Source of the DNA: a virus
Length of the DNA: 20,585 nucleotides
Reading direction: 5' to 3' (one strand)
IMG/VR virus record: IMGVR_UViG_3300026097_000131
Span: 1 to 20,585 of that record
In this document: positions 1 to 9,855 of the stretch, in pieces
Numbering within the stretch: the first letter of the stretch is position 1
Layout of the letters: each line of letters starts with the position of its first letter
Position numbers and translations under genes: made by a program
Notes under the pieces: model-generated
Told to the model about the DNA's origin: nothing
The model's database searches: none
What the model saw: the letters and a program-made list of their open reading frames with translations, nothing else

Positions 1-138
1 ACAACAGACACAACAGGCCAAACTACCGGCCAAACTACCGGCCAAACTACCGGCCAAACTACCGGCACAACAGACACAACAGACACAACAGGCCAAACTA
101 CCGGTCAAACTACAGACCAAACTACAGACACAACAGAT
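1..138 (+). repeat. In-frame tandem repeat array of 12-bp and 9-bp units (TTGQ/TTD)
   Basis: Four perfect 12-bp units (caaactaccggc) lie at 19-66. Three 9-bp acaacagac/ggc units follow at 67-93 and three more 12-bp variants at 94-129. The array begins at or before base 1, so its full length is unknown. All units are multiples of three, so gain or loss of a unit would keep the reading frame and change only the length of the Thr-rich tract. Confidence 0.9.
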
Positions 139-1059
139 AACACCTTTACCCTAACCGCAGCAGATGGCACTACAAGCACGACTAACGTACCCACTAGGCA
201 GGCGACAGCCTTCGTTCCTATAGACCCTGACGGCTCTGTCTACGGCCCAGTACAAAGTACCCCAACAGAAATACTGGAGGGTATAAATCCCGAAGGTGGC
301 TTTTCCGATCAGGAACAAAGAATAGTAGCTAACCTGCTTACTTCAGGCCGAACCGACATAGGTACAGTTAACGAAATGCTCGGTGTCGAAACTGGCGATG
401 TACTAGAAGGCTTACTACGTGGCGAATTCCAAACACCTGCTGAAACGGCGGCTATGCTACGCGACTACGGCAATGAAGGCTTCACTGAGGTTGACCTAGT
501 TGCTAATCTGCTAAATACAGGCAGGGCAAAACCAGAAGAAGTAGCTTCATACTACAGAAACACGGACGCCAACTATGCAGACTTAACTGCGCAAGACGTA
601 GAAAATGAGCTAGCTAAGATAAACCAGCAAAGCACGCTGGACTATTTGACTGGGCTGTCAGACGAAGAAGTTGGGGCGCTAATAAACGACGGCACGCTTC
701 CTATATCCCAAGCCGTAAAAGTATACCAAGACCGCTACCCCGGGCTTACCGAAGCAGACGTAGAGGCAGCGTTAAAAGCGCAAGGCTACGCCCAAGGCGG
801 TAATGTAAGCGGGTATTACTTAGGCGGTACAACAGATGGTATGGCAGATCAAATTCCTGCTACAATCAACGACATGCAGCCAGCAGCGCTAAGTGACGGG
901 GAGTTTGTGATTCCTGCCGATGTAGTCAGTCATTTAGGTAATGGCAACTCCGACGCCGGAGCAAAAGAACTATATTCAATGATGGACCGAATACGTCGAG
1001 ATCGTACCGGTACTACCAAACAGGGCAAAGAAATTGACCCTAACAAATACTTAGCGTGA
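1..1059 (+). CDS. Virion-associated protein with Thr-rich repeats and DGEFVIPADVV tail, 5'-partial
   Basis: The frame is open from base 1 to the TGA at 1057-1059, so 352 codons of a longer gene are visible; the ATG at 376 is internal, because the same frame continues upstream of it in protein-like sequence. Residues 1-46 are a Thr-rich low-complexity tract built from TTGQ and TTD units. Residues 101-261 hold three degenerate helical repeats about 60 residues apart, starting FSDQEQ (101), FTEVDL (161) and LSDEEV (219). After a Gly-rich hinge comes a conserved end with DGEFVIP (299-305) and a Lys/Arg-rich tail. I recall this ending from many environmental phage proteins encoded with structural genes, but no function is established. 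It heads a co-directional row of likely virion genes, 10 bases before the next one. A tail, fibre or internal virion role is inference. Confidence 0.8.
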   Translation, partial: TTDTTGQTTGQTTGQTTGQTTGTTDTTDTTGQTTGQTTDQTTDTTDNTFTLTAADGTTSTTNVPTRQATAFVPIDPDGSVYGPVQSTPTEILEGINPEGGFSDQEQRIVANLLTSGRTDIGTVNEMLGVETGDVLEGLLRGEFQTPAETAAMLRDYGNEGFTEVDLVANLLNTGRAKPEEVASYYRNTDANYADLTAQDVENELAKINQQSTLDYLTGLSDEEVGALINDGTLPISQAVKVYQDRYPGLTEADVEAALKAQGYAQGGNVSGYYLGGTTDGMADQIPATINDMQPAALSDGEFVIPADVVSHLGNGNSDAGAKELYSMMDRIRRDRTGTTKQGKEIDPNKYLA

Positions 1060-1069
1060 GGCAATAACA

Positions 1070-1960
1070 ATGGCCGGATTAGACCTACCGATAGGCACAC
1101 AAACAGGAACTACGGAGGAACTGTCTTCTTGGGCGGCCCCTTATGTGACTAACATGTTGGGCAAAGGGCAGGCACTCTCCAACATGCCGTATACGGCATA
1201 CTCGGGGCCTCTTACTGCGGGGCAGTCTGCGCTACAAGGTCAAGCATTTCAAGGACTTGCTAATCTGTCTATGCCCACAGCGCAGCAGACTACTTACGAC
1301 CCTATGTCTTTTACTGGGGCAGGATACGCAGCGCCTACGGCGGCCCAAGCGGCAGCGGGGGAAACCGGTACTTACACCCCGGCTTCGGGCAATGTACTAC
1401 AGCAATACATGTCACCCTACCTACAAGGCGCACTTCAGCCTCAGTATGATGCGGCGAACCGCCAAGCCCAGATTGCTGCTCAAAACCTCCAAAGCCAGTA
1501 CGGTAAAGCAGGTGCCTACGGTGGGTCTCGTCAGGGTATTGCCGAGGCTGAATTACAGCGTGGCCTACTAGATCGCATGGCAGGTATTACAGGCAAGGGC
1601 TACCAGACTGCATTTGAGCAGGCGCAACGTCAGTTCAACGAAGAACAGCGGCGCCAGATGGATGCAGCGGGTCAAGCCCAACGTTACGGCTTAGATGTAC
1701 TACGTGAGCAGCAAACGGGTGGGGCAGCGCAGCGCGGCATAGAAAGCGAAGGCATAGCGGCAGACATTGGCCAGTTCCGTGAAGAGCGGGACTTCCCGTT
1801 CAAGCAGGTACAGTTCCAACAGGGGCTACTATCTAACCTGCCAATCTCGCAGCGCACAACTCAGTATGCGGACCCTAGCACCCTACAGAAATTTGGTGCG
1901 GGGGCGTCGGAAATAATTAGCATATTAGATTTACTGACTGGTAATAGGGACGAGGGGTAA
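1070..1960 (+). CDS. Gln/Ala-rich phage protein, probable virion or internal protein
   Basis: This 296-residue protein of unknown function starts at an ATG with GAGG eight bases upstream. It is rich in Gln, Ala and Gly and looks helical, with no signal peptide or transmembrane segment. The most family-like part is residues 108-190. It has a YMSPYLQG segment, then long Ala/Gln helices, then GAYGGSRQGIAEAEL near 148-161, then a Gln-rich amphipathic stretch (AFEQAQRQFNEEQRRQ). The C-terminal DFPFKQVQFQQGLLSNLP (241-258) is another recognisable element. Comparable proteins sit beside structural genes in many podovirus-like environmental genomes. Its place between two probable virion genes suggests an internal or tail-associated component, but nothing in the sequence shows an enzymatic site. 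Confidence 0.75.
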   Translation: MAGLDLPIGTQTGTTEELSSWAAPYVTNMLGKGQALSNMPYTAYSGPLTAGQSALQGQAFQGLANLSMPTAQQTTYDPMSFTGAGYAAPTAAQAAAGETGTYTPASGNVLQQYMSPYLQGALQPQYDAANRQAQIAAQNLQSQYGKAGAYGGSRQGIAEAELQRGLLDRMAGITGKGYQTAFEQAQRQFNEEQRRQMDAAGQAQRYGLDVLREQQTGGAAQRGIESEGIAADIGQFREERDFPFKQVQFQQGLLSNLPISQRTTQYADPSTLQKFGAGASEIISILDLLTGNRDEG

Positions 1961-1966
1961 CACACA

Positions 1967-3634
1967 ATGGCTTACGGAGTAGACTCTGAGATCAATGAGC
2001 GTGTGGATATGTACTCGTCCGACCCTCAGAAACTAATGCAGCGTTACGGGCAAAGCCAAAGCCTGCTGGACTTGCTTGCTTTACAGAAACTTAAATCTGA
2101 AAAAGAAGCGGCTATGCGTAATATGCAGGCCCAAATGCAGCCTCGTATGGATACTGTAAAAGATCAGCGCGAGCAGCAAGTACTTGATATGACTAGAAAT
2201 GAAGTAGCCCAACAGGCTATGCAAGGTGGTCAGCAGCTCGCACTTAACCGACAACGTGCCATGCAGGCGCGCGGTCTACCCACACAGGCGGCTCCTAATA
2301 TGGGCGGTATGATGGGCGGGGGTATTGTTGGCTACCAAGCAGGCGGCGAAGTCGAAGACAAAGGCATGCTGGAAAAGATTGGCCGTACGTTCCTAGGTGA
2401 TGAGAGCTACGACATCATCCGACAGCGCTTAGAAGGTAACAAAGCTAATACGCAAATGCAGCCTCCTATGACGGAGAGCGAGCGCGTTACACAGCTACAG
2501 AACCTCATGCTCAAGCGTAAAGCCGCAGGCGCTACCGATGCCGAAATCCAACGCATACAGGAAGAGATTAACTCCTACGACCTAGGCGGTATTAAGTCTG
2601 GCGGCCTCAAAGGCTTTGAAGGTGGGGGTATTGTTGGGCTACAAGCTGGCGGTACTGGCGAAGATAAAATGCGCGAGTTAGGTATTGACCCCGACTACAA
2701 CATATTTAGCGGGACACTTGAGGCGATCGGTGACGCAGTTAAAACCGGCGCTACAGTAGTACCCGAGTTTCTAGCCGGTCTATTGCCATATGGGGGTTCA
2801 GTGGGCGAAGCGCGTATGGCAGAACAAGAAATGGCTGATGCGGTATCTGCCGCTTACCCTGAAGAGTCTGTCGGTACTCAACGCGCGATTGCTGAAGTAA
2901 TGATGGCACGAGGCGAAGAACTGCCCCCACCAGCAGCAGTAGAAACCCCAGCCGTTGACCCGCTCCTTACCCAAGAAATGTACATGGTGCCTAGGACTAT
3001 AGACGACGAAGCTACTGCTGAACCTACGGGTGACGGTCTTGCCGCTCTTACTGCTGCTATACAACCTAATAGACTTGCAGAGCTACGCCAGAAACGTGAA
3101 GATGTTATGGGCGGTATTACCTCTCCTGAGCGCCTACAGCGTGACAAGCTGCGTGCCTACTTATCAGGACTAGGACAAACCGGTTTAGGTGGTGGAGCGG
3201 AAGCCCTTACTAAAGAACAGCAACGCCAAGATGCGCTGCGTGTTGGTGACCTAGACAAGCTGATCGCGCTGGAACGTGAAGATGTAAATCTACAGCGTGA
3301 GATAGACGCTAGTATGGAAGAGCTTGTCGCTAAGAACCAAAATGAGTTGGCTAAAATAATTGCTGAGGCAGGGTTCAAAGACCAGCTAGACCGTGCGGGC
3401 GACCGCCGTAAGTTTATTGCCGACGTAGTTAAGCAGGTACAGAAAGATGCGGCGCTTAATCCTGAGCTGATGGCCCTTGAACAAGCGAAGCGAGAAGGCG
3501 ATATTTCTGCCTCTGACTACGACACCCAACGCATGGCCATAATTAAGAACATTATGAGCGGACTGCCTGCCAACTACGATTTGGAAGTTGGGTTAGGCGG
3601 CGGGGTTTCCTTTACTTCAGGTAGTTTTGAATAG
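1967..3634 (+). CDS. Phage protein with two GGGIVG..AGG motifs, probable virion or ejection component
   Basis: This 555-residue protein starts 6 bases after the previous stop, with GAGGGG nine bases before the ATG. Residues 1-100 form a Gln/Met/Arg-rich helical region containing DPQKLMQRYGQSQSLLDLLA, a segment common in environmental phage proteins of this genome position. Two near-identical Gly motifs, GGGIVGYQAGG (117-127) and GGGIVGLQAGG (219-229), each end an Ala/Gln-rich helical stretch and are followed by acidic or polar sequence. A weakly hydrophobic stretch follows near residues 245-275. Residues 370-500 are charged and helical, probably coiled coil. No catalytic motif is visible. It is encoded directly upstream of the giant polyvalent protein, so a role as a co-packaged internal or ejection protein is plausible but inferred. 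Confidence 0.75.
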   Translation: MAYGVDSEINERVDMYSSDPQKLMQRYGQSQSLLDLLALQKLKSEKEAAMRNMQAQMQPRMDTVKDQREQQVLDMTRNEVAQQAMQGGQQLALNRQRAMQARGLPTQAAPNMGGMMGGGIVGYQAGGEVEDKGMLEKIGRTFLGDESYDIIRQRLEGNKANTQMQPPMTESERVTQLQNLMLKRKAAGATDAEIQRIQEEINSYDLGGIKSGGLKGFEGGGIVGLQAGGTGEDKMRELGIDPDYNIFSGTLEAIGDAVKTGATVVPEFLAGLLPYGGSVGEARMAEQEMADAVSAAYPEESVGTQRAIAEVMMARGEELPPPAAVETPAVDPLLTQEMYMVPRTIDDEATAEPTGDGLAALTAAIQPNRLAELRQKREDVMGGITSPERLQRDKLRAYLSGLGQTGLGGGAEALTKEQQRQDALRVGDLDKLIALEREDVNLQREIDASMEELVAKNQNELAKIIAEAGFKDQLDRAGDRRKFIADVVKQVQKDAALNPELMALEQAKREGDISASDYDTQRMAIIKNIMSGLPANYDLEVGLGGGVSFTSGSFE

Positions 3635-3644
3635 GTAGGACACT

Positions 3645-6600
3645 ATGCCTTTATTTACGGCTAACTCCCCTTCGGGGGAAAGCATTCGCTATTTTGTACC
3701 TGAAGGCACGTCAAGAGAAGAAGCGCTACGCTATGCCCCTACGGCCTACCAACTCAAGCGCCGTGGTGTAGATGTAGAGAAGCCGTCTGAGCCTGTGGCG
3801 CCAGAACGCACGTTCGGTGGTTATGCAAAGGAAACAGGTAAAGGTTTACTAGCTGGTGCTGCGGGGCTACTAGAAGCTGCCGCTACTGGCGCTACCCCAA
3901 TACTCCGCGATGAGTTAGAGCCGGGCGCTCGTGAAGCTATTGCCGAAGTCGGTGGTGGGATACAAGACTTACTTGCCCCCGGACGGGCCTATGAAGACAG
4001 CACCTACTTAGATGTAGTACGTGGTGCAGGTTCTACCCTACCGTTCCTTGCCACGGGATTCCTTGGCGCTCCGGGCTTAGCCGCCGGTATTGCTACTGGT
4101 GCTGCTGCGGGTTCTGGTGAGGCCATCCAACGTGCCGAAGCTGCCGGTGCTACCGAGAGACAAATAAAACGAGCGGGTACAGCAGGTTTGCTTCCCGGCC
4201 TTGGCGAGACTTTAGTACCGTTTGCTATAGGTAAGACCATCCGTGCTGCCCGTGCAGCTAAAGGGTTGAAGGACGCTATTGGTGAAGCGCCCGCCACAGA
4301 TGTACTAGCTAGGCTTCGTAGGGTAGGTGGTGCAGCCGGTGGCGAAGGTCTACAGGAAGCCTCGGCCCAAGTAGCACAGAACCTGATCGCGCAGAATATC
4401 TACGACCCCGAGTCCGGTACGTTTATCGGTACGGGTGAATCTCTCGGTATTGGTGCCGGTGTTGGTGGCTTAATCGCCGCCCTTGCTGAACTTGCCATCC
4501 GTGACCGTGGCCCTCGCACCTCTACCCCTACCGATTTAACCGAAGAAGAACTTGCTGCACTACCCCAAGCCCCAGTAACTTCGGAATCCCTACCCGACGA
4601 AGAACTTACTGACGAGCAAGTACAAGCGCGCCTAGCAGAAGCTGCTGCCGATGAAGAGGCCCTTTCCGGTGTAGTAGGGGAAATCCAAGACCGAGAAATA
4701 CGTAGGGACGAGGGAATCTTTGAGGAACAACTACTGTTCCCAGAGCTGGAACCCGCGCAGCAGGCCGAAGGTCTGGTAGCGCTAGGCGTAAGGCCGACTG
4801 CTCCTATTATCAAGCGCATTGAAGGTAAGCAGTTATCTGATCCTATACAGAGACGTGAAGTATTCGACGAGCTGCAAAAGTATGCCCGCAATAAAAACGT
4901 CAAGCCTGCAACCCGCAGACGCATAGGTGATTTACTACAGGACGAAGTTTTTGCGGATACTAGATTAGACGTAGCGGCTGGCCCCGGGCCTGCACCGCAG
5001 CAGATGACCATAGAGGAAGGCATCGAGCGCGACGTTCGCCGTGAAGAAGCAGAAGAGCGTAGAGCGCAAGAGTTTGCGCTAGCGGAAGCCGCCCGTCGTC
5101 CTGATGTACCTACTGCTATGGGCGCTGCGTTGCAAGCCGCTGAAACTACTGGCCGACGAGTACCGGGCCAAGCGCAGTTAGAGATACCTACTATCGAACC
5201 TGCTGACCCCCAAGCTCAACAAGCTATGGAAAGTGCGGACCTCGACCAGCAAATAGCCGCAGAACAACGCGCCATAGAAGCTACGGAAGCGCAAGCCCAA
5301 GAACAAGTTGAGATGCTAGGACCGCGTGGGGGTATTTTGCGTCCTACCCGTCCTGCTCGTCGCGCTGCTCCTGCTGCCCCTGAACCTGTTGCTGAGCCTG
5401 TTGCCGAAACTACTACCCCTGAACCTGTTGCTCCTGCTCCTGAGCCTGTTGCTGAGCCTGTTGCCGAAACTACTACACCTGCTGCTAAGCCTGTATTTAC
5501 CCCATCTCCAGAAACCAATGCACCTAGGAGTCGTGAAACGGCGACGGTAATTAGTCCAGACGAGTTCCTAAACTTAGCCGAAGATTTACCTGAAAGCCAA
5601 GCACGTGAGGAGTCAGAGGAGTTTATACGCGAGCAGATAGCTAAGGGAGAGCCGCTAGAAACCCCTTTCTTGACCTTTGAACTAGACAATAAAGGCATAG
5701 CCAAAGTTACTGGGCATGAAGGGCGCCATCGCGCTCGCGTACTAAAAGAAATGGGCATAGCAGAAATGCCGGTACGCCTTAGATCACAAGGAAAAAACGA
5801 GATACGCTGGTCCGAGCAAGACAGCGCTACAAATAGGGATAGGCTTGATGTCCCTTGGCCAACGACACTAGAACCACAAGAAGGAAGTAGTGGGAGTGCA
5901 GTCCCCTTCCCTATAGCCGATCCTTTAGCTGCCGAGCCTGCTGTTGAGCCTGCACCTGCCCCCGAAGCTGCCTCTGTAGTAGAAGAAGAAGCAGTAAGCA
6001 CAGCCGAGACTGAAGCTGCTGCGGTAGCGGCGGAACAAGGTGATACGGATGCGGAGGTACTAAAAGCAGAAACAGAAGCTGTATCGCAACCTACTCCTGA
6101 AGCGGAAGTTAAACGATCTGCTAGCCGGGAAGAGGACAGTACCAGAGTATTCGAGGAAGTTGTCAGCAACCCACAAGGTCCTGTAAGCAAGTACTTTAAA
6201 GACGCAAAGAGCCTAGAAGAAGGCATAGACGCGCTAGCTGCTGATATGTCCACGGGCCTGACTAAAGAAAATGTAGCGGCCCAAGAGTGGGTAAAGGCCA
6301 ACCTAAGCGCCACTTCGCGTAAAGACCTGTCAGATTCAGTACGCGTTATGCGCGAGTCCATGGGCCTACCACTGCCTGCGGCGGCTATTGCTGTGGCTAG
6401 CAATCCACTATCCCAACAGATTCGGGCCAAGTTGGACGCCGGTGACTTGCGTGGGGCCATTAACGATCTCACACAAAGTACTGACCAGACCGTAGCGCGG
6501 GTAGCTACCGCCATAGAACAAGGTTTAGACAACACTAAAGTCGTTATGGTTAGTGGGCTTACTAACGCCGAAGGCAAGACAGTAGCCGGTCAGTACGATC

Positions 6601-9600
6601 CCGCAACAGATACTATTACGCTAAACCAAGATGCAGACCTTAAGAATCACGTCCTGCTCCACGAGGCTATGCACGCTGTAACCTCTCACGAGATAGCGAA
6701 GAACACCCCTGCTGCGCAGCAAATGCGCAACCTATTCGACTCAGTTAAAGACCGGCTGGATACTGCGTACGGCGCTACCAACCTTGATGAGTTCGTGGCG
6801 GAAGCGTTCAGTAACCCCGAGTTCCAAGCCAAGCTAGGCCGTATAACTCCTAAAGGCGAGAAGATTAGTCTGTGGAGTAGATTCAAGAACATTGTCGAGA
6901 ATATAGTACGCCGATTCCGTGGGCAGCCTAGCAAGAAAATCGAGTCCGCTATGGACAAGGCTGATTCCCTCGTTGCAGAACTTATCTCTCCAGCTCCTGA
7001 GTCCCGCGACGCCACTAAGCTCTACTCTGCTACCGTTGAAGGTGAAGAGAAGGCCACACTTAACGCATCCGGTAGGTTCGCCAAAGGTAAGATAAGCAAA
7101 GAAGATATAGCAGTTGCAGCTACCGCTTTCAGTACAGCAGGTGGTCAGGCGCAGAACGCCTTAATGCAGTTCCTACCTCTTAACGCTGTGTACAAGCTAG
7201 CGCAAAAGAATTACCCGAGGCTAGCCGAGAAGGCCGAAGAGTTGTTTAAGCTGCTCCAGACTAAGAACGGCGATCGCCAGAAGTACCTCAACAGGACCAA
7301 AGATACTGCTGATGCGGTTGAAAGGATTATAGGCAAGGACAAGAAGGTAAAAGAGGTTCTAAATAACTGGACTGCTGAGAGTACGCTTGCTCGTGTTGAC
7401 CCTACAAAACCCGAAAGCAAGTATAGAGGAGACGAAGAGGCGCTAGACGCATGGAATATGATGAACGACATGCTGAAAGGCATGACCCCTGCGCAGCAAA
7501 AAGCCGTTAAAGACTCCTACAGTATGCTACGCGATTCGTATTCTGAGGTTTACAAGATTCTTGTAAAGACTATGGAAAAGCGTATCGACGACATAAAAGA
7601 CGCGGACGTGCGTGAGAACATAAGAAACAAACTACTTGTTCAGCGCTTAGAAAAAGAAGCCATCGAGCCGTACTTCCCGCTGTACCGTAAGGGCAGCCAT
7701 TGGGTTTTTTATAGAGCGCGCGACCCTAGGACTGGGCAGAATGAAACTTATAAAGAAGCGTTTCAGTCCGAGTACGCCCAACAAGAAGCCGCAAGGCAGC
7801 TAAGAAGCACGGAAGGCGTGGACAATATAGAAGTATATACGCGCAACAAAACCGGTAACTTTGGGCAGGTAGATGCGCAGTTTGCGTTTAACCTACTTGC
7901 CGATGTGCGGGCGAAGGGCGCGGACCAGAGTATCCAAGACGTACTGCTTGACTCGCTATTCGACATCATGCCGGAGCGATCTTTAGTACGCGCGTTTAAG
8001 CCGCGCCAAGGTACCCGAGGCTTTGAGACAGACGCCCTTAAAGTGTTTAGAGAGCGGATGCCTAACTTCACTAATCAGATCGTCAACCTGAAGCATGATT
8101 TCAAGTTAAGTACAATTAGCAACGAGCTAACCGACAGAAAGAACGAGTACAAAGCCACTCCAGAAATCTACTCGGGGGCGGAGAAACTCGAAGCGCAGTT
8201 GCAAGGCTACATTAACTTCGCACGTAACCCTAAGATAGCTACTTGGAGTAAGGCACTTAAGACTGCTGGCTTCGGTATGACTCTAGGCTTCAACGTGTCG
8301 TCGGTCATAGTTAACGCGTCTAACTTACCTATCGTGGTATTGCCGTACTTGGGTGGGCGCTATGGGTTTACCGATACCATGAAGGCTATGAACGACGCAC
8401 GTAAGCTATTTATGAGCACGGGTACAAAGCGCAGGACTGAGACGTTTACCGGCGAAGGTACCAGAGAGGTGTTTGAAGGCCCGTCTTTATCTAACATAGA
8501 CTTTAGCGCCTCTAACCTTTCTAACCTCCCTCCAGAACAACGTGAGCTAAAAGAACTAAACGACCTAATGGAAGCGCGCGGGCAGTCGAATATATCCACT
8601 ACGTCTGAAAACTTAGACATGGAGAACCCTGCTAACACTGCGTGGACAGCTACTAACGCCTACATGGGCTGGATGTTCCACCAAGGCGAGCGGTTTAACC
8701 GCCAAGTCACCGCAATAACTTCGTACAAACTTGAGTTAAGAGAGCGCGCAAAAAAGGGGGAGATAACAAAACAAGACCGCGAAGAAGCCGCTGAGATTGC
8801 TCTCGACGATACCGAGCTGACAAATAGTGGTGCTATGGCCGAAACCGCCCCCCGCGTAGCGCAAAGCAATATGGGCAACTGGATGATGATGTACAAGCGG
8901 TTCGGTATATCTATGTACTATCTCCAGTTCCAGATGGCTAGGCAGGCTATAGACCGCGCCAAAACTCCTGACGAACGCAAGCAAGCGATACAGCAGATTG
9001 TAGGGTTGTTCGCCTCCTCTGCGCTGTTTGCCGGTGTTCAGGGCCTACCGTTGTACGGTGTAGTTTCAATGCTAGCAAACGCAATACTGCTAGGCGACGA
9101 GGACGAGGACTTCGATAGCATAGCCGCTAGTTACTTCGGTGAGGGTCTGTACTCTGGTGCGATCAACGCCGTATTTGATGTGGATGTGGCGCCTCGTATC
9201 GGTATGACGAACTTAGTGTACCGCTCGCTACCTAACCGCGAGCAAGAAAGCCTGATACTACAAGCCATGGAATTCTTAGGTGGCCCGGTTGTAGGTATAG
9301 CCAGCCGTATGGAAGATGGTATTGGCTTAATATCGGAAGGTGAGGTGAGTCGTGGGGTTGAGAGAATGCTCCCGTCTGCGCTGTCCAACGGCATGAAGGC
9401 ACTGCGCTACGGTACTGAGGGTGCTACTACTCTGCGCGGCGATCCTATAATGGAAGACATGAACCCATGGAACGTGTTTGCTCAGTCGTTAGGCTTGGCT
9501 CCTGCGGGCTACACAAAGCAGTTAGAGGTCAATGCCCGAGATAAGGGTGTAGAGCGAAGGGTAAATGCCAAACGTACCGACATGATGCGCGACTACTACA

Positions 9601-9830
9601 TGGCGATAAAAGAGGGCGATGCGGATACTGCCAACGAGCTGATACAAGAGATGGTGGAGTTCTCTCAAAGAAATCCGTTTGCGGCGATCAGTGGACAGAC
9701 ACTATCGCGTTCGATGCGACAGCACCGCGTTACAGATGAGATAGCTAGACAGCTTGGTGGTATTACCGCATCGCAACGCTCTATGCTGCGAATAATCCAA
9801 CGACGCATGGAAGATATGGGCGAGGAATAA
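3645..9830 (+). CDS. Giant polyvalent protein: ParB-like domain, HEXXH metallopeptidase, PLxRxG motif
   Basis: The gene encodes 2061 residues with AGGTAGGA just upstream of the ATG. Domains in order: a short N-terminal domain (1-40); a Gly/Ala-rich hydrophobic region (about 62-180); a long acidic helical region (295-520); a Pro/Ala/Glu linker with a 20-residue repeat (about 579-612); a ParB/sulfiredoxin-like domain (about 632-757) with GHEGRHRA at 690-697; an Ala/Glu-rich linker; a zincin-type metallopeptidase with HEAMH at 1006-1010 and DEFVAEAF at 1048-1055, Glu1053 being the likely third zinc ligand; a helical region with a PLxRxG motif (PLYRKG, 1345-1350); and hydrophobic segments near 1534-1575 and 1785-1815. 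Multi-domain polyvalent proteins of this kind are known from phages and conjugative elements and are thought to enter the host with the DNA. Delivery into the cell and peptidase cleavage of a host or phage protein are inferences. It is the last gene of the plus-strand block. Confidence 0.85.
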   Translation: MPLFTANSPSGESIRYFVPEGTSREEALRYAPTAYQLKRRGVDVEKPSEPVAPERTFGGYAKETGKGLLAGAAGLLEAAATGATPILRDELEPGAREAIAEVGGGIQDLLAPGRAYEDSTYLDVVRGAGSTLPFLATGFLGAPGLAAGIATGAAAGSGEAIQRAEAAGATERQIKRAGTAGLLPGLGETLVPFAIGKTIRAARAAKGLKDAIGEAPATDVLARLRRVGGAAGGEGLQEASAQVAQNLIAQNIYDPESGTFIGTGESLGIGAGVGGLIAALAELAIRDRGPRTSTPTDLTEEELAALPQAPVTSESLPDEELTDEQVQARLAEAAADEEALSGVVGEIQDREIRRDEGIFEEQLLFPELEPAQQAEGLVALGVRPTAPIIKRIEGKQLSDPIQRREVFDELQKYARNKNVKPATRRRIGDLLQDEVFADTRLDVAAGPGPAPQQMTIEEGIERDVRREEAEERRAQEFALAEAARRPDVPTAMGAALQAAETTGRRVPGQAQLEIPTIEPADPQAQQAMESADLDQQIAAEQRAIEATEAQAQEQVEMLGPRGGILRPTRPARRAAPAAPEPVAEPVAETTTPEPVAPAPEPVAEPVAETTTPAAKPVFTPSPETNAPRSRETATVISPDEFLNLAEDLPESQAREESEEFIREQIAKGEPLETPFLTFELDNKGIAKVTGHEGRHRARVLKEMGIAEMPVRLRSQGKNEIRWSEQDSATNRDRLDVPWPTTLEPQEGSSGSAVPFPIADPLAAEPAVEPAPAPEAASVVEEEAVSTAETEAAAVAAEQGDTDAEVLKAETEAVSQPTPEAEVKRSASREEDSTRVFEEVVSNPQGPVSKYFKDAKSLEEGIDALAADMSTGLTKENVAAQEWVKANLSATSRKDLSDSVRVMRESMGLPLPAAAIAVASNPLSQQIRAKLDAGDLRGAINDLTQSTDQTVARVATAIEQGLDNTKVVMVSGLTNAEGKTVAGQYDPATDTITLNQDADLKNHVLLHEAMHAVTSHEIAKNTPAAQQMRNLFDSVKDRLDTAYGATNLDEFVAEAFSNPEFQAKLGRITPKGEKISLWSRFKNIVENIVRRFRGQPSKKIESAMDKADSLVAELISPAPESRDATKLYSATVEGEEKATLNASGRFAKGKISKEDIAVAATAFSTAGGQAQNALMQFLPLNAVYKLAQKNYPRLAEKAEELFKLLQTKNGDRQKYLNRTKDTADAVERIIGKDKKVKEVLNNWTAESTLARVDPTKPESKYRGDEEALDAWNMMNDMLKGMTPAQQKAVKDSYSMLRDSYSEVYKILVKTMEKRIDDIKDADVRENIRNKLLVQRLEKEAIEPYFPLYRKGSHWVFYRARDPRTGQNETYKEAFQSEYAQQEAARQLRSTEGVDNIEVYTRNKTGNFGQVDAQFAFNLLADVRAKGADQSIQDVLLDSLFDIMPERSLVRAFKPRQGTRGFETDALKVFRERMPNFTNQIVNLKHDFKLSTISNELTDRKNEYKATPEIYSGAEKLEAQLQGYINFARNPKIATWSKALKTAGFGMTLGFNVSSVIVNASNLPIVVLPYLGGRYGFTDTMKAMNDARKLFMSTGTKRRTETFTGEGTREVFEGPSLSNIDFSASNLSNLPPEQRELKELNDLMEARGQSNISTTSENLDMENPANTAWTATNAYMGWMFHQGERFNRQVTAITSYKLELRERAKKGEITKQDREEAAEIALDDTELTNSGAMAETAPRVAQSNMGNWMMMYKRFGISMYYLQFQMARQAIDRAKTPDERKQAIQQIVGLFASSALFAGVQGLPLYGVVSMLANAILLGDEDEDFDSIAASYFGEGLYSGAINAVFDVDVAPRIGMTNLVYRSLPNREQESLILQAMEFLGGPVVGIASRMEDGIGLISEGEVSRGVERMLPSALSNGMKALRYGTEGATTLRGDPIMEDMNPWNVFAQSLGLAPAGYTKQLEVNARDKGVERRVNAKRTDMMRDYYMAIKEGDADTANELIQEMVEFSQRNPFAAISGQTLSRSMRQHRVTDEIARQLGGITASQRSMLRIIQRRMEDMGEE
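5381..5480 (+). repeat. Two 40-bp near-perfect direct repeats, period 60 bp, in the giant gene
   Basis: Bases 5381-5420 and 5441-5480 differ at two positions only. They encode EPVAEPVAETTTP twice, separated by a related Pro/Ala stretch. The unit is in frame and lies in a Pro-rich linker between the acidic helical region and the ParB-like domain. Confidence 0.85.
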
Positions 9831-9855
9831 AAAAAGCCCCCAACTAGTGGGGGCT
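9829..9855 (-). terminator. Rho-independent terminator of the minus-strand operon
   Basis: GCCCCCA (9836-9842) pairs with TGGGGGC (9848-9854) around a 5-base loop, and A9835 can pair with T9855. Read on the minus strand the stem is followed by seven T (complement of 9829-9835), the classic terminator form. On the plus strand it is followed only by TAAAACTCTTT, so termination in that direction should be weaker. It lies about 100 bases after the last minus-strand stop codon and its T-tract overlaps the TAA of the giant plus-strand gene. Confidence 0.85.

Follow-up and report, generated by a model that had tools for sequence, protein, structure and literature searches.

The window analyzed here is a stretch of 20,585 bases from an uncultured virus (IMG/VR record IMGVR_UViG_3300026097_000131, positions 1 to 20,585). 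One gene, referred to below as the giant gene, encodes a protein of 2,061 amino acids (aa), occupies 6,186 of the 20,585 bases (30.05%), and closes the plus-strand operon, a virion operon, as had been described in an earlier reading of the sequence alone (the sequence-only reading). At the GC content of the window, a stop-free run of this length has a chance log10 P of about -41, and a chance open reading frame (ORF) is therefore excluded. The ratio of nonsynonymous to synonymous substitution rates (dN/dS) relative to related genes was 0.05 to 0.19 in most modules of the protein and 0.30 to 0.37 in a spacer at aa 345 to 620. This purifying selection confirms that the giant gene is coding. A ribosome-binding-like AGGA sits 4 bases 5′ of its ATG; the preceding gene ends with a TAG at position 3634, and the giant gene begins 10 bases beyond that stop.

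Modules of the giant protein

Searches with the full-length giant protein gave no significant match in Pfam or among PDB sequences; the Pfam search revealed neither a methylase nor a helicase, an RNA polymerase, or a known anti-defense domain. Alignment with relatives, together with profile and structure comparisons, divided the protein into the modules listed in Table 1. The parts named in the sequence-only reading are real: hydrophobic Gly/Ala stretches in the N-terminal module (aa 67 to 87, 134 to 154, and 260 to 285), an acidic spacer, the ParB signature, the HEAMH of a zincin metallopeptidase at aa 1006, PLYRKG at aa 1345, and hydrophobic stretches in the C-terminal domain (aa 1546 to 1569 and 1781 to 1816). 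The Gly/Ala module is kept across the whole clade of relatives, and Pro makes up 27% of aa 566 to 628 in the spacer. In one 1,822-aa giant protein (locus L010, 5868 to 10592), the N-terminal Gly/Ala module is the only part in common; the body differs and bears another HExxH motif, HEISH.

The PLxRxG motif is present as first described, but it belongs to a 700-aa PLxRFG domain and is not a short motif. NCBIfam model NF032893 (PLxRFG) matched this domain with 334.1 bits (E value, 1.8e-99), exceeding the curated cutoff of 100 bits. LPD39 (PF18858) matched with 25.4 bits (E value, 1.3e-5), just under the Pfam cutoff of 27, and was matched in 12 of 19 relatives (best E value, 4.7e-56). The assignment to polyvalent proteins made in the sequence-only reading is supported, and neither of the two outcomes that the reading gave as refuting it was obtained. 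That reading had also taken the combination of domains to be particular to this chain; this did not hold, since the N-terminal module, ParB domain, zincin, and PLxRFG domain recur together in L095, L097, and L098. We conclude that the giant protein is a member of the PLxRFG/polyvalent giants, which are already catalogued, and not a unique invention.

Table 1. Features of the window and modules of the giant protein
Feature	Position	Strand	Evidence
Upstream gene, 5′ truncated, 352+ aa, Thr/Gln/Gly-rich start	1..1059	+	ORF
296-aa "DNA ejection protein," gp14/gp7-like position	1070..1960	+	phrog_4287, E value 4.6e-14
555-aa protein, gp15/periplasmic-tunnel position (role from gene order only)	1967..3634	+	ORF
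AGGA, ribosome-binding-like site of giant gene	3637..3640	+	Sequence
Giant gene, 2,061 aa	3645..9830	+	ATG start
N-terminal motif, aa 1-60, conserved in full-length relatives	3645..3824	+	Alignment of relatives
Gly/Ala-rich hydrophobic module, aa 60-345	3822..4679	+	Alignment, hydrophobicity
Helical domain, aa ~345-450, two divergent variants among relatives	4731..4994 (aa 363-450)	+	Alignment of relatives
Spacer, aa 450-627, acidic then Pro-rich	4992..5525	+	Composition
ParB/sulfiredoxin-fold cassette (model-supported), aa 628-760, with GHEGRHRA	5526..5924	+	Alignment, AlphaFold model
Zincin metallopeptidase, aa 930-1135	6432..7049	+	Alignment, profile and structure comparison
HEAMH zinc-binding motif, aa 1006-1010	6660..6674	+	Sequence
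LPD39, aa 1168-1324	7146..7616	+	PF18858
PLxRFG ("tail-700") domain, aa 1342-2041	7668..9767	+	NF032893
PLYRKG motif, aa 1345-1350	7677..7694	+	Sequence
Terminator-like hairpin, end of convergent replication operon	9835..9855	-	Sequence

Virion setting and C-terminal half

The giant gene follows a predicted ejection-protein gene and the gene for the 555-aa protein, for which PHROG and Pfam searches gave no significant match. The same gene order is found in L009, preceded by endolysin and virion structural genes, and virion structural genes also lie upstream of the giant gene in L014. In the cultured phage Rollin, a homologue (WNV50603; E value, 1e-145) lies between head genes and lysis/tail genes; this gene (L012, 10008 to 16562) is annotated as the oligopeptide-binding protein OppA, apparently a misannotation. 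The PLxRFG domain is shared with H66 gp60 (E value, 1.8e-70), which is annotated as "verified by mass spectrometry" in the virion. Another giant, the "DarB-like" JC1 gp69, yielded 51 unique peptides from virions (PMC9144972). We rejected JC1 gp69 as direct virion evidence because our C-terminal profile does not match it and it has a C-terminal domain of another family; it is parallel support only. A relative with 68% identity, L125 (JARGNI010000084.1), comes from a Verrucomicrobiales metagenome-assembled genome, where its contig measures 8.9 kb; this is either a hint of the host or a misbinned virus contig.

At the 5′ end of the window, the truncated first gene begins with a TTGQ/TTDT-type low-complexity repeat (positions 1 to 180), and PHROG and Pfam searches with its product gave no match. 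Beyond the giant gene, the convergent operon encodes a DUF927 primase-helicase, an SNF2 helicase, a PD-(D/E)XK nuclease, and a family A polymerase.

The structure of the C-terminal half, modeled from a 69-sequence alignment, was mostly helical (predicted local distance difference test score [pLDDT], 75.5). A Foldseek search of PDB with this model gave no match below an E value of 0.1. Among predicted viral structures there were 114 matches at an E value of <0.001, mostly to polyvalent-domain proteins of uncultured phages, and fold matches were also found to an "internal core protein" of Ralstonia phage RSB3 (E value, 2e-10) and to "internal virion protein D" of Roseobacter phage CRP-4 (E value, 7e-8). 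The modeled fold and the gene position suggest that the C-terminal half is kin to ejection proteins. JC1 gp69 (L110) and the giants of SopranoGao/ZX1 have 43 to 44% identity immediately ahead of the C-terminal domain, although their C-terminal families differ, which suggests that C-terminal modules are exchanged too.

We consider it probable that the giant protein is a giant internal virion (ejection) protein, an inner-membrane-type ejectosome member with interchangeable cargo. Delivery with the genome, as proposed in the sequence-only reading, is well supported by homology.

A ParB/sulfiredoxin-fold cassette is absent from close relatives

A segment bearing the signature GHEGRHRA, which starts at aa 690, lies between the spacer and the zincin. 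Across an alignment of 12 such segments, GHEGRHR is invariant in all 12 and the conserved Arg is kept; the family has an additional conserved tail, IRWxxQ...WPTTLxGE...PFP. No Pfam model matched any of the 12 members, and comparison with ParB, sulfiredoxin, and SbnI-type proteins gave no significant sequence match. An AlphaFold2 model built from the 12 sequences (pLDDT, 81) had sulfiredoxin as its best solved fold match (Z score, 7.2; 3.1 Å over 93 residues), with further matches to free serine kinase (SerK), ParB, Noc, and OSA, and the Foldseek matches ranked highest, as well as nearly all of those shown, were of the sulfiredoxin (Srx)/ParB/SerK/Noc/OSA type. The model thus supports a ParB/sulfiredoxin fold. 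Membership in the DdrB-ParB family (PF18763) was considered and rejected, since none of the 12 members matches that model; P1 DdrB was also unmatched. By analogy with the superfamily, the cassette probably has enzymatic activity.

The cassette is missing from close relatives (L002 to L006 and L009) that are 66 to 87% identical across the remainder of the C-terminal half; in these, the spacer leads directly to the zincin region with no cassette between. L014, L018, L029, L030, and L034 likewise lack it. L008, 90% identical at the N terminus, stops before the cassette slot. The nearest copies (53%) are in a protein encoded beside the portal gene in an unrelated virus (L090/L091). A profile scan also placed the cassette in distant giants of the same layout (L095, L097, and L098). 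Further large proteins (L094, L096, and L100) carry it too, and it forms small stand-alone proteins (L102 to L107). These stand-alone or short phage proteins are ~90 to 215 aa, and one occurs in phage NCTB (LT598654, about 1069 to 1407). The 2,829-aa giant of L095 (5709 to 14195) has, by eye, an L,D-transpeptidase-like stretch (HSVW...SFGCINVP) between cassette and zincin, unconfirmed by Pfam. From this distribution we read the cassette as a mobile, replaceable ParB/sulfiredoxin unit that is specific to this genome among close relatives. The ParB-like domain of the sequence-only reading survives as a fold, but it is not a fixed part of the chain.

The cassette bears on whether the giant protein is instead a dedicated injected counter-defense protein, similar to the P1 Dar proteins, that blocks host restriction or CRISPR or disables host functions and acts outside the DNA channel. 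Relatives with the same C terminus carry methylase, SNF2, RadC, ART, InPase, MuF-C, or DdrB-ParB domains; the ParB/Srx domains of polyvalent proteins are predicted DNases (PMC5512222); and PHROG labels the protein "DarB-like antirestriction." That label, however, derives from the shared C terminus only. We rejected a P1 DarB-type antirestriction role, since the protein has no methylase or SWI2/SNF2 helicase and the C-terminal profile scored at chance level against P1 DarB; neither P1 DarB nor P1 DdrB is matched by the C-terminal profile or the present ParB family. Moreover, close relatives do without the cassette, the sole candidate effector apart from the zincin, whereas the conserved ends are always kept. 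A dedicated counter-defense protein is thus unlikely, and the cargo may have a role in counter-defense or takeover.

The zincin and the protease slot

Of all the modules, the zincin is under the tightest constraint (dN/dS, 0.056 and 0.092). Most relatives that align across it retain HExxH and a downstream Glu, and the third zinc ligand is probably E1049. Profile comparison (hhalign) with the zincin of the N4 virion RNA polymerase (vRNAP) gave a probability of 92.8% (P = 4e-7), with the alignment spanning HExxH and an EF motif, and the giant protein matched the PHROG vRNAP family (E value, 3.7e-6). As judged from these profiles, the zincin is akin to that of N4 vRNAP, whose zincin region is required for encapsidation (PMC5512222). 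Structural comparison also gave weak fold matches to M34-type peptidases, with Z scores of 8.6 for a toxin catalytic domain and 6.6 for PPEP-1; we read these matches as a shared zincin fold only.

We counted motifs in the 63 giants that have enough sequence before PLxRxG (the loci are partly redundant). HExxH lies 150 to 900 aa upstream of PLxRxG in 47; a JAB/RadC-like motif (HxHP...S..D) occupies the slot in 11; and 5 have neither. Pfam confirmed RadC in 1 of 19 giants scanned. Atu_ph08 (L011, 15143 to 18691) and L069 to L085 have the JAB/RadC-like motif, as HNHPS...S..D, at the usual place of the zincin. Going by these motifs, the slot is filled by a zincin in some giants and by a RadC/JAB-like metallopeptidase in others. 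That two unrelated types of metallopeptidase share one position suggests a benefit of proteolysis close to the delivery half.

A highly constrained protease and a late-operon position would also suit an assembly protein, core or scaffold-like, that is not ejected and whose zincin is a head maturation protease; in P1, processing of DdrB precedes its packaging (PMC5512222). However, replacement of the zincin by a RadC/JAB-like motif (11 of 63), or by nothing recognized (5 of 63), would be odd for an essential maturase, and the length, membrane-like segments, and exchangeable effector-type cassette fit delivery better, so that we regard an assembly role as quite improbable. A tail or tape-measure-like structural protein with no effector role, its "domains" being decayed remnants, would account for the NCBIfam model name "tail-700" and the very long helical chain but is highly improbable given that the zincin catalytic residues are kept in most relatives (dN/dS, 0.05 to 0.09) and the ParB-box Arg in 12 of 12.

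A probable ejection protein with exchangeable cargo

Our preferred reading, a giant ejection protein with interchangeable cargo, draws on the modules, gain and loss of the cassette, selection, ParB fold, kinship with the N4 zincin, and gene order from this analysis and, from others, on the virion presence of a C-terminal homologue; from these we infer ejection, membrane insertion, cleavage, and cargo activity. The conserved C-terminal half (zincin, LPD39, and PLxRFG) would package the protein and take part in ejection. With the 296-aa and 555-aa products, the giant protein would form an ejectosome of the T7 gp14-15-16 or N4 gp52-51-50 type and serve as its inner-membrane/cytoplasmic member, with the Gly/Ala module and the C-terminal hydrophobic stretches inserting into or crossing the host inner membrane. 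The variable middle would carry cargo into the cell along with the DNA; in this phage the cargo would be the ParB/sulfiredoxin-fold domain, which, to judge from its superfamily, probably acts as an NTP-dependent nuclease or nucleotidase. A probable task of the zincin is to process the chain or to free the cargo from the Pro-rich linkers that flank the cassette.

Several results weigh against this reading. N4 vRNAP, although it bears a zincin, is packaged uncleaved (PMC5512222), and processing by the zincin may therefore not occur. Structural alignment (VIA-align) of the C-terminal half gave a Z score of 6.6 with N4 gp50 (root mean square deviation, 21; aligned span, 2374 to 3490) and of 5.9 with an ejectosome chain of phiM1, both within the noise of helical models; the gp50 span coincides with the C2 domain defined previously (PMC12633501). 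By hhalign, the PLxRFG domain gave no signal with N4 C2 and a probability of 2.9% with T7 gp16 (score, 32, versus a maximum of 24.8 in 20 column shuffles). Small-xxx-small patterns in the N-terminal module are weakly above shuffled sequences (P = 0.07). Finally, the virion evidence is the annotation note on H66 gp60, a protein alike in its C-terminal part only.

More tentatively, and with considerable doubt, we propose that the podovirus-type PLxRFG/DarB-like/LPD39 giants may constitute one inner-membrane ejectosome family, equivalent to T7 gp16 and N4 vRNAP, that acts as a chassis for delivery: the ends and the protease slot (zincin or JAB) would be kept, cargo would be swapped within disordered Pro-rich linkers, and the protease would cut these linkers once ejected and thereby free the cargo, the cargo here being a ParB/sulfiredoxin enzyme family not in Pfam. 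If so, the catalogued but unexplained "DarB-like" and "PLxRFG" giants are natural chassis for protein delivery, with cargo exchanged between closely related phages, comparing close relatives and reading the slot would reveal what phages inject, and the role of the zincin in N4 vRNAP and in the giant protein becomes testable. New in this analysis are evidence that a cassette is exchanged among close relatives, a named ParB/sulfiredoxin family that is absent from Pfam, two types of protease alternating at a single slot, and a case for treating PLxRFG/polyvalent giants as ejectosome proteins with cargo.

Comparison with known systems

The closest known proteins are the PLxRFG/"DarB-like" giants (H66, F116, ZX1, SopranoGao, Atu_ph08, and Rollin; NF032893), which have the same C-terminal 700-aa domain and late-operon position but are only ~20 to 29% identical to the giant protein. 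Many carry a methylase/SNF2 helicase, some have RadC/JAB in place of the zincin, and the present ParB cassette is missing from all the cultured phages that were matched. Polyvalent proteins (Iyer et al. 2017, PMC5512222) have the same kind of multidomain chain, with zincin and ParB-type parts, LPD39, and virion-gene neighbors, whereas the Pfam ddrB-ParB model fails to match the ParB family described here. Of the features by which polyvalent proteins are recognized, the giant protein has at least two unrelated domains that differ in biochemical type in one chain (ParB/Srx fold, zincin, and LPD39/PLxRFG) and adjacency to virion genes, with an ejection-protein gene upstream and structural genes in L009 and L014.

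In order of size (small, medium, giant), the 296-, 555-, and 2,061-aa products resemble T7 gp14-15-16 and N4 gp52-51-50, sets in which the third protein enters the inner membrane and cytoplasm (PMC8954989, PMC12633501). The C-terminal part of the giant protein has a weak fold resemblance to proteins named after T7 gp16 (internal virion protein D). Unlike T7 gp16, it has no Pfam match to the N-terminal lytic transglycosylase (lysozyme), which P22-type gp16 also lacks (PMC8954989). N4 gp50 carries an RNA polymerase domain, whereas the giant protein has no Pfam match to a single-subunit RNA polymerase. N4 vRNAP consists of a membrane N-terminal domain, a zincin (C1), and a helical C2 (PMC12633501), and the giant protein resembles gp50 in its great size, in coming third behind two smaller ejection proteins, and in having a membrane-type N-terminal part, a related zincin, and a large helical C-terminal part.

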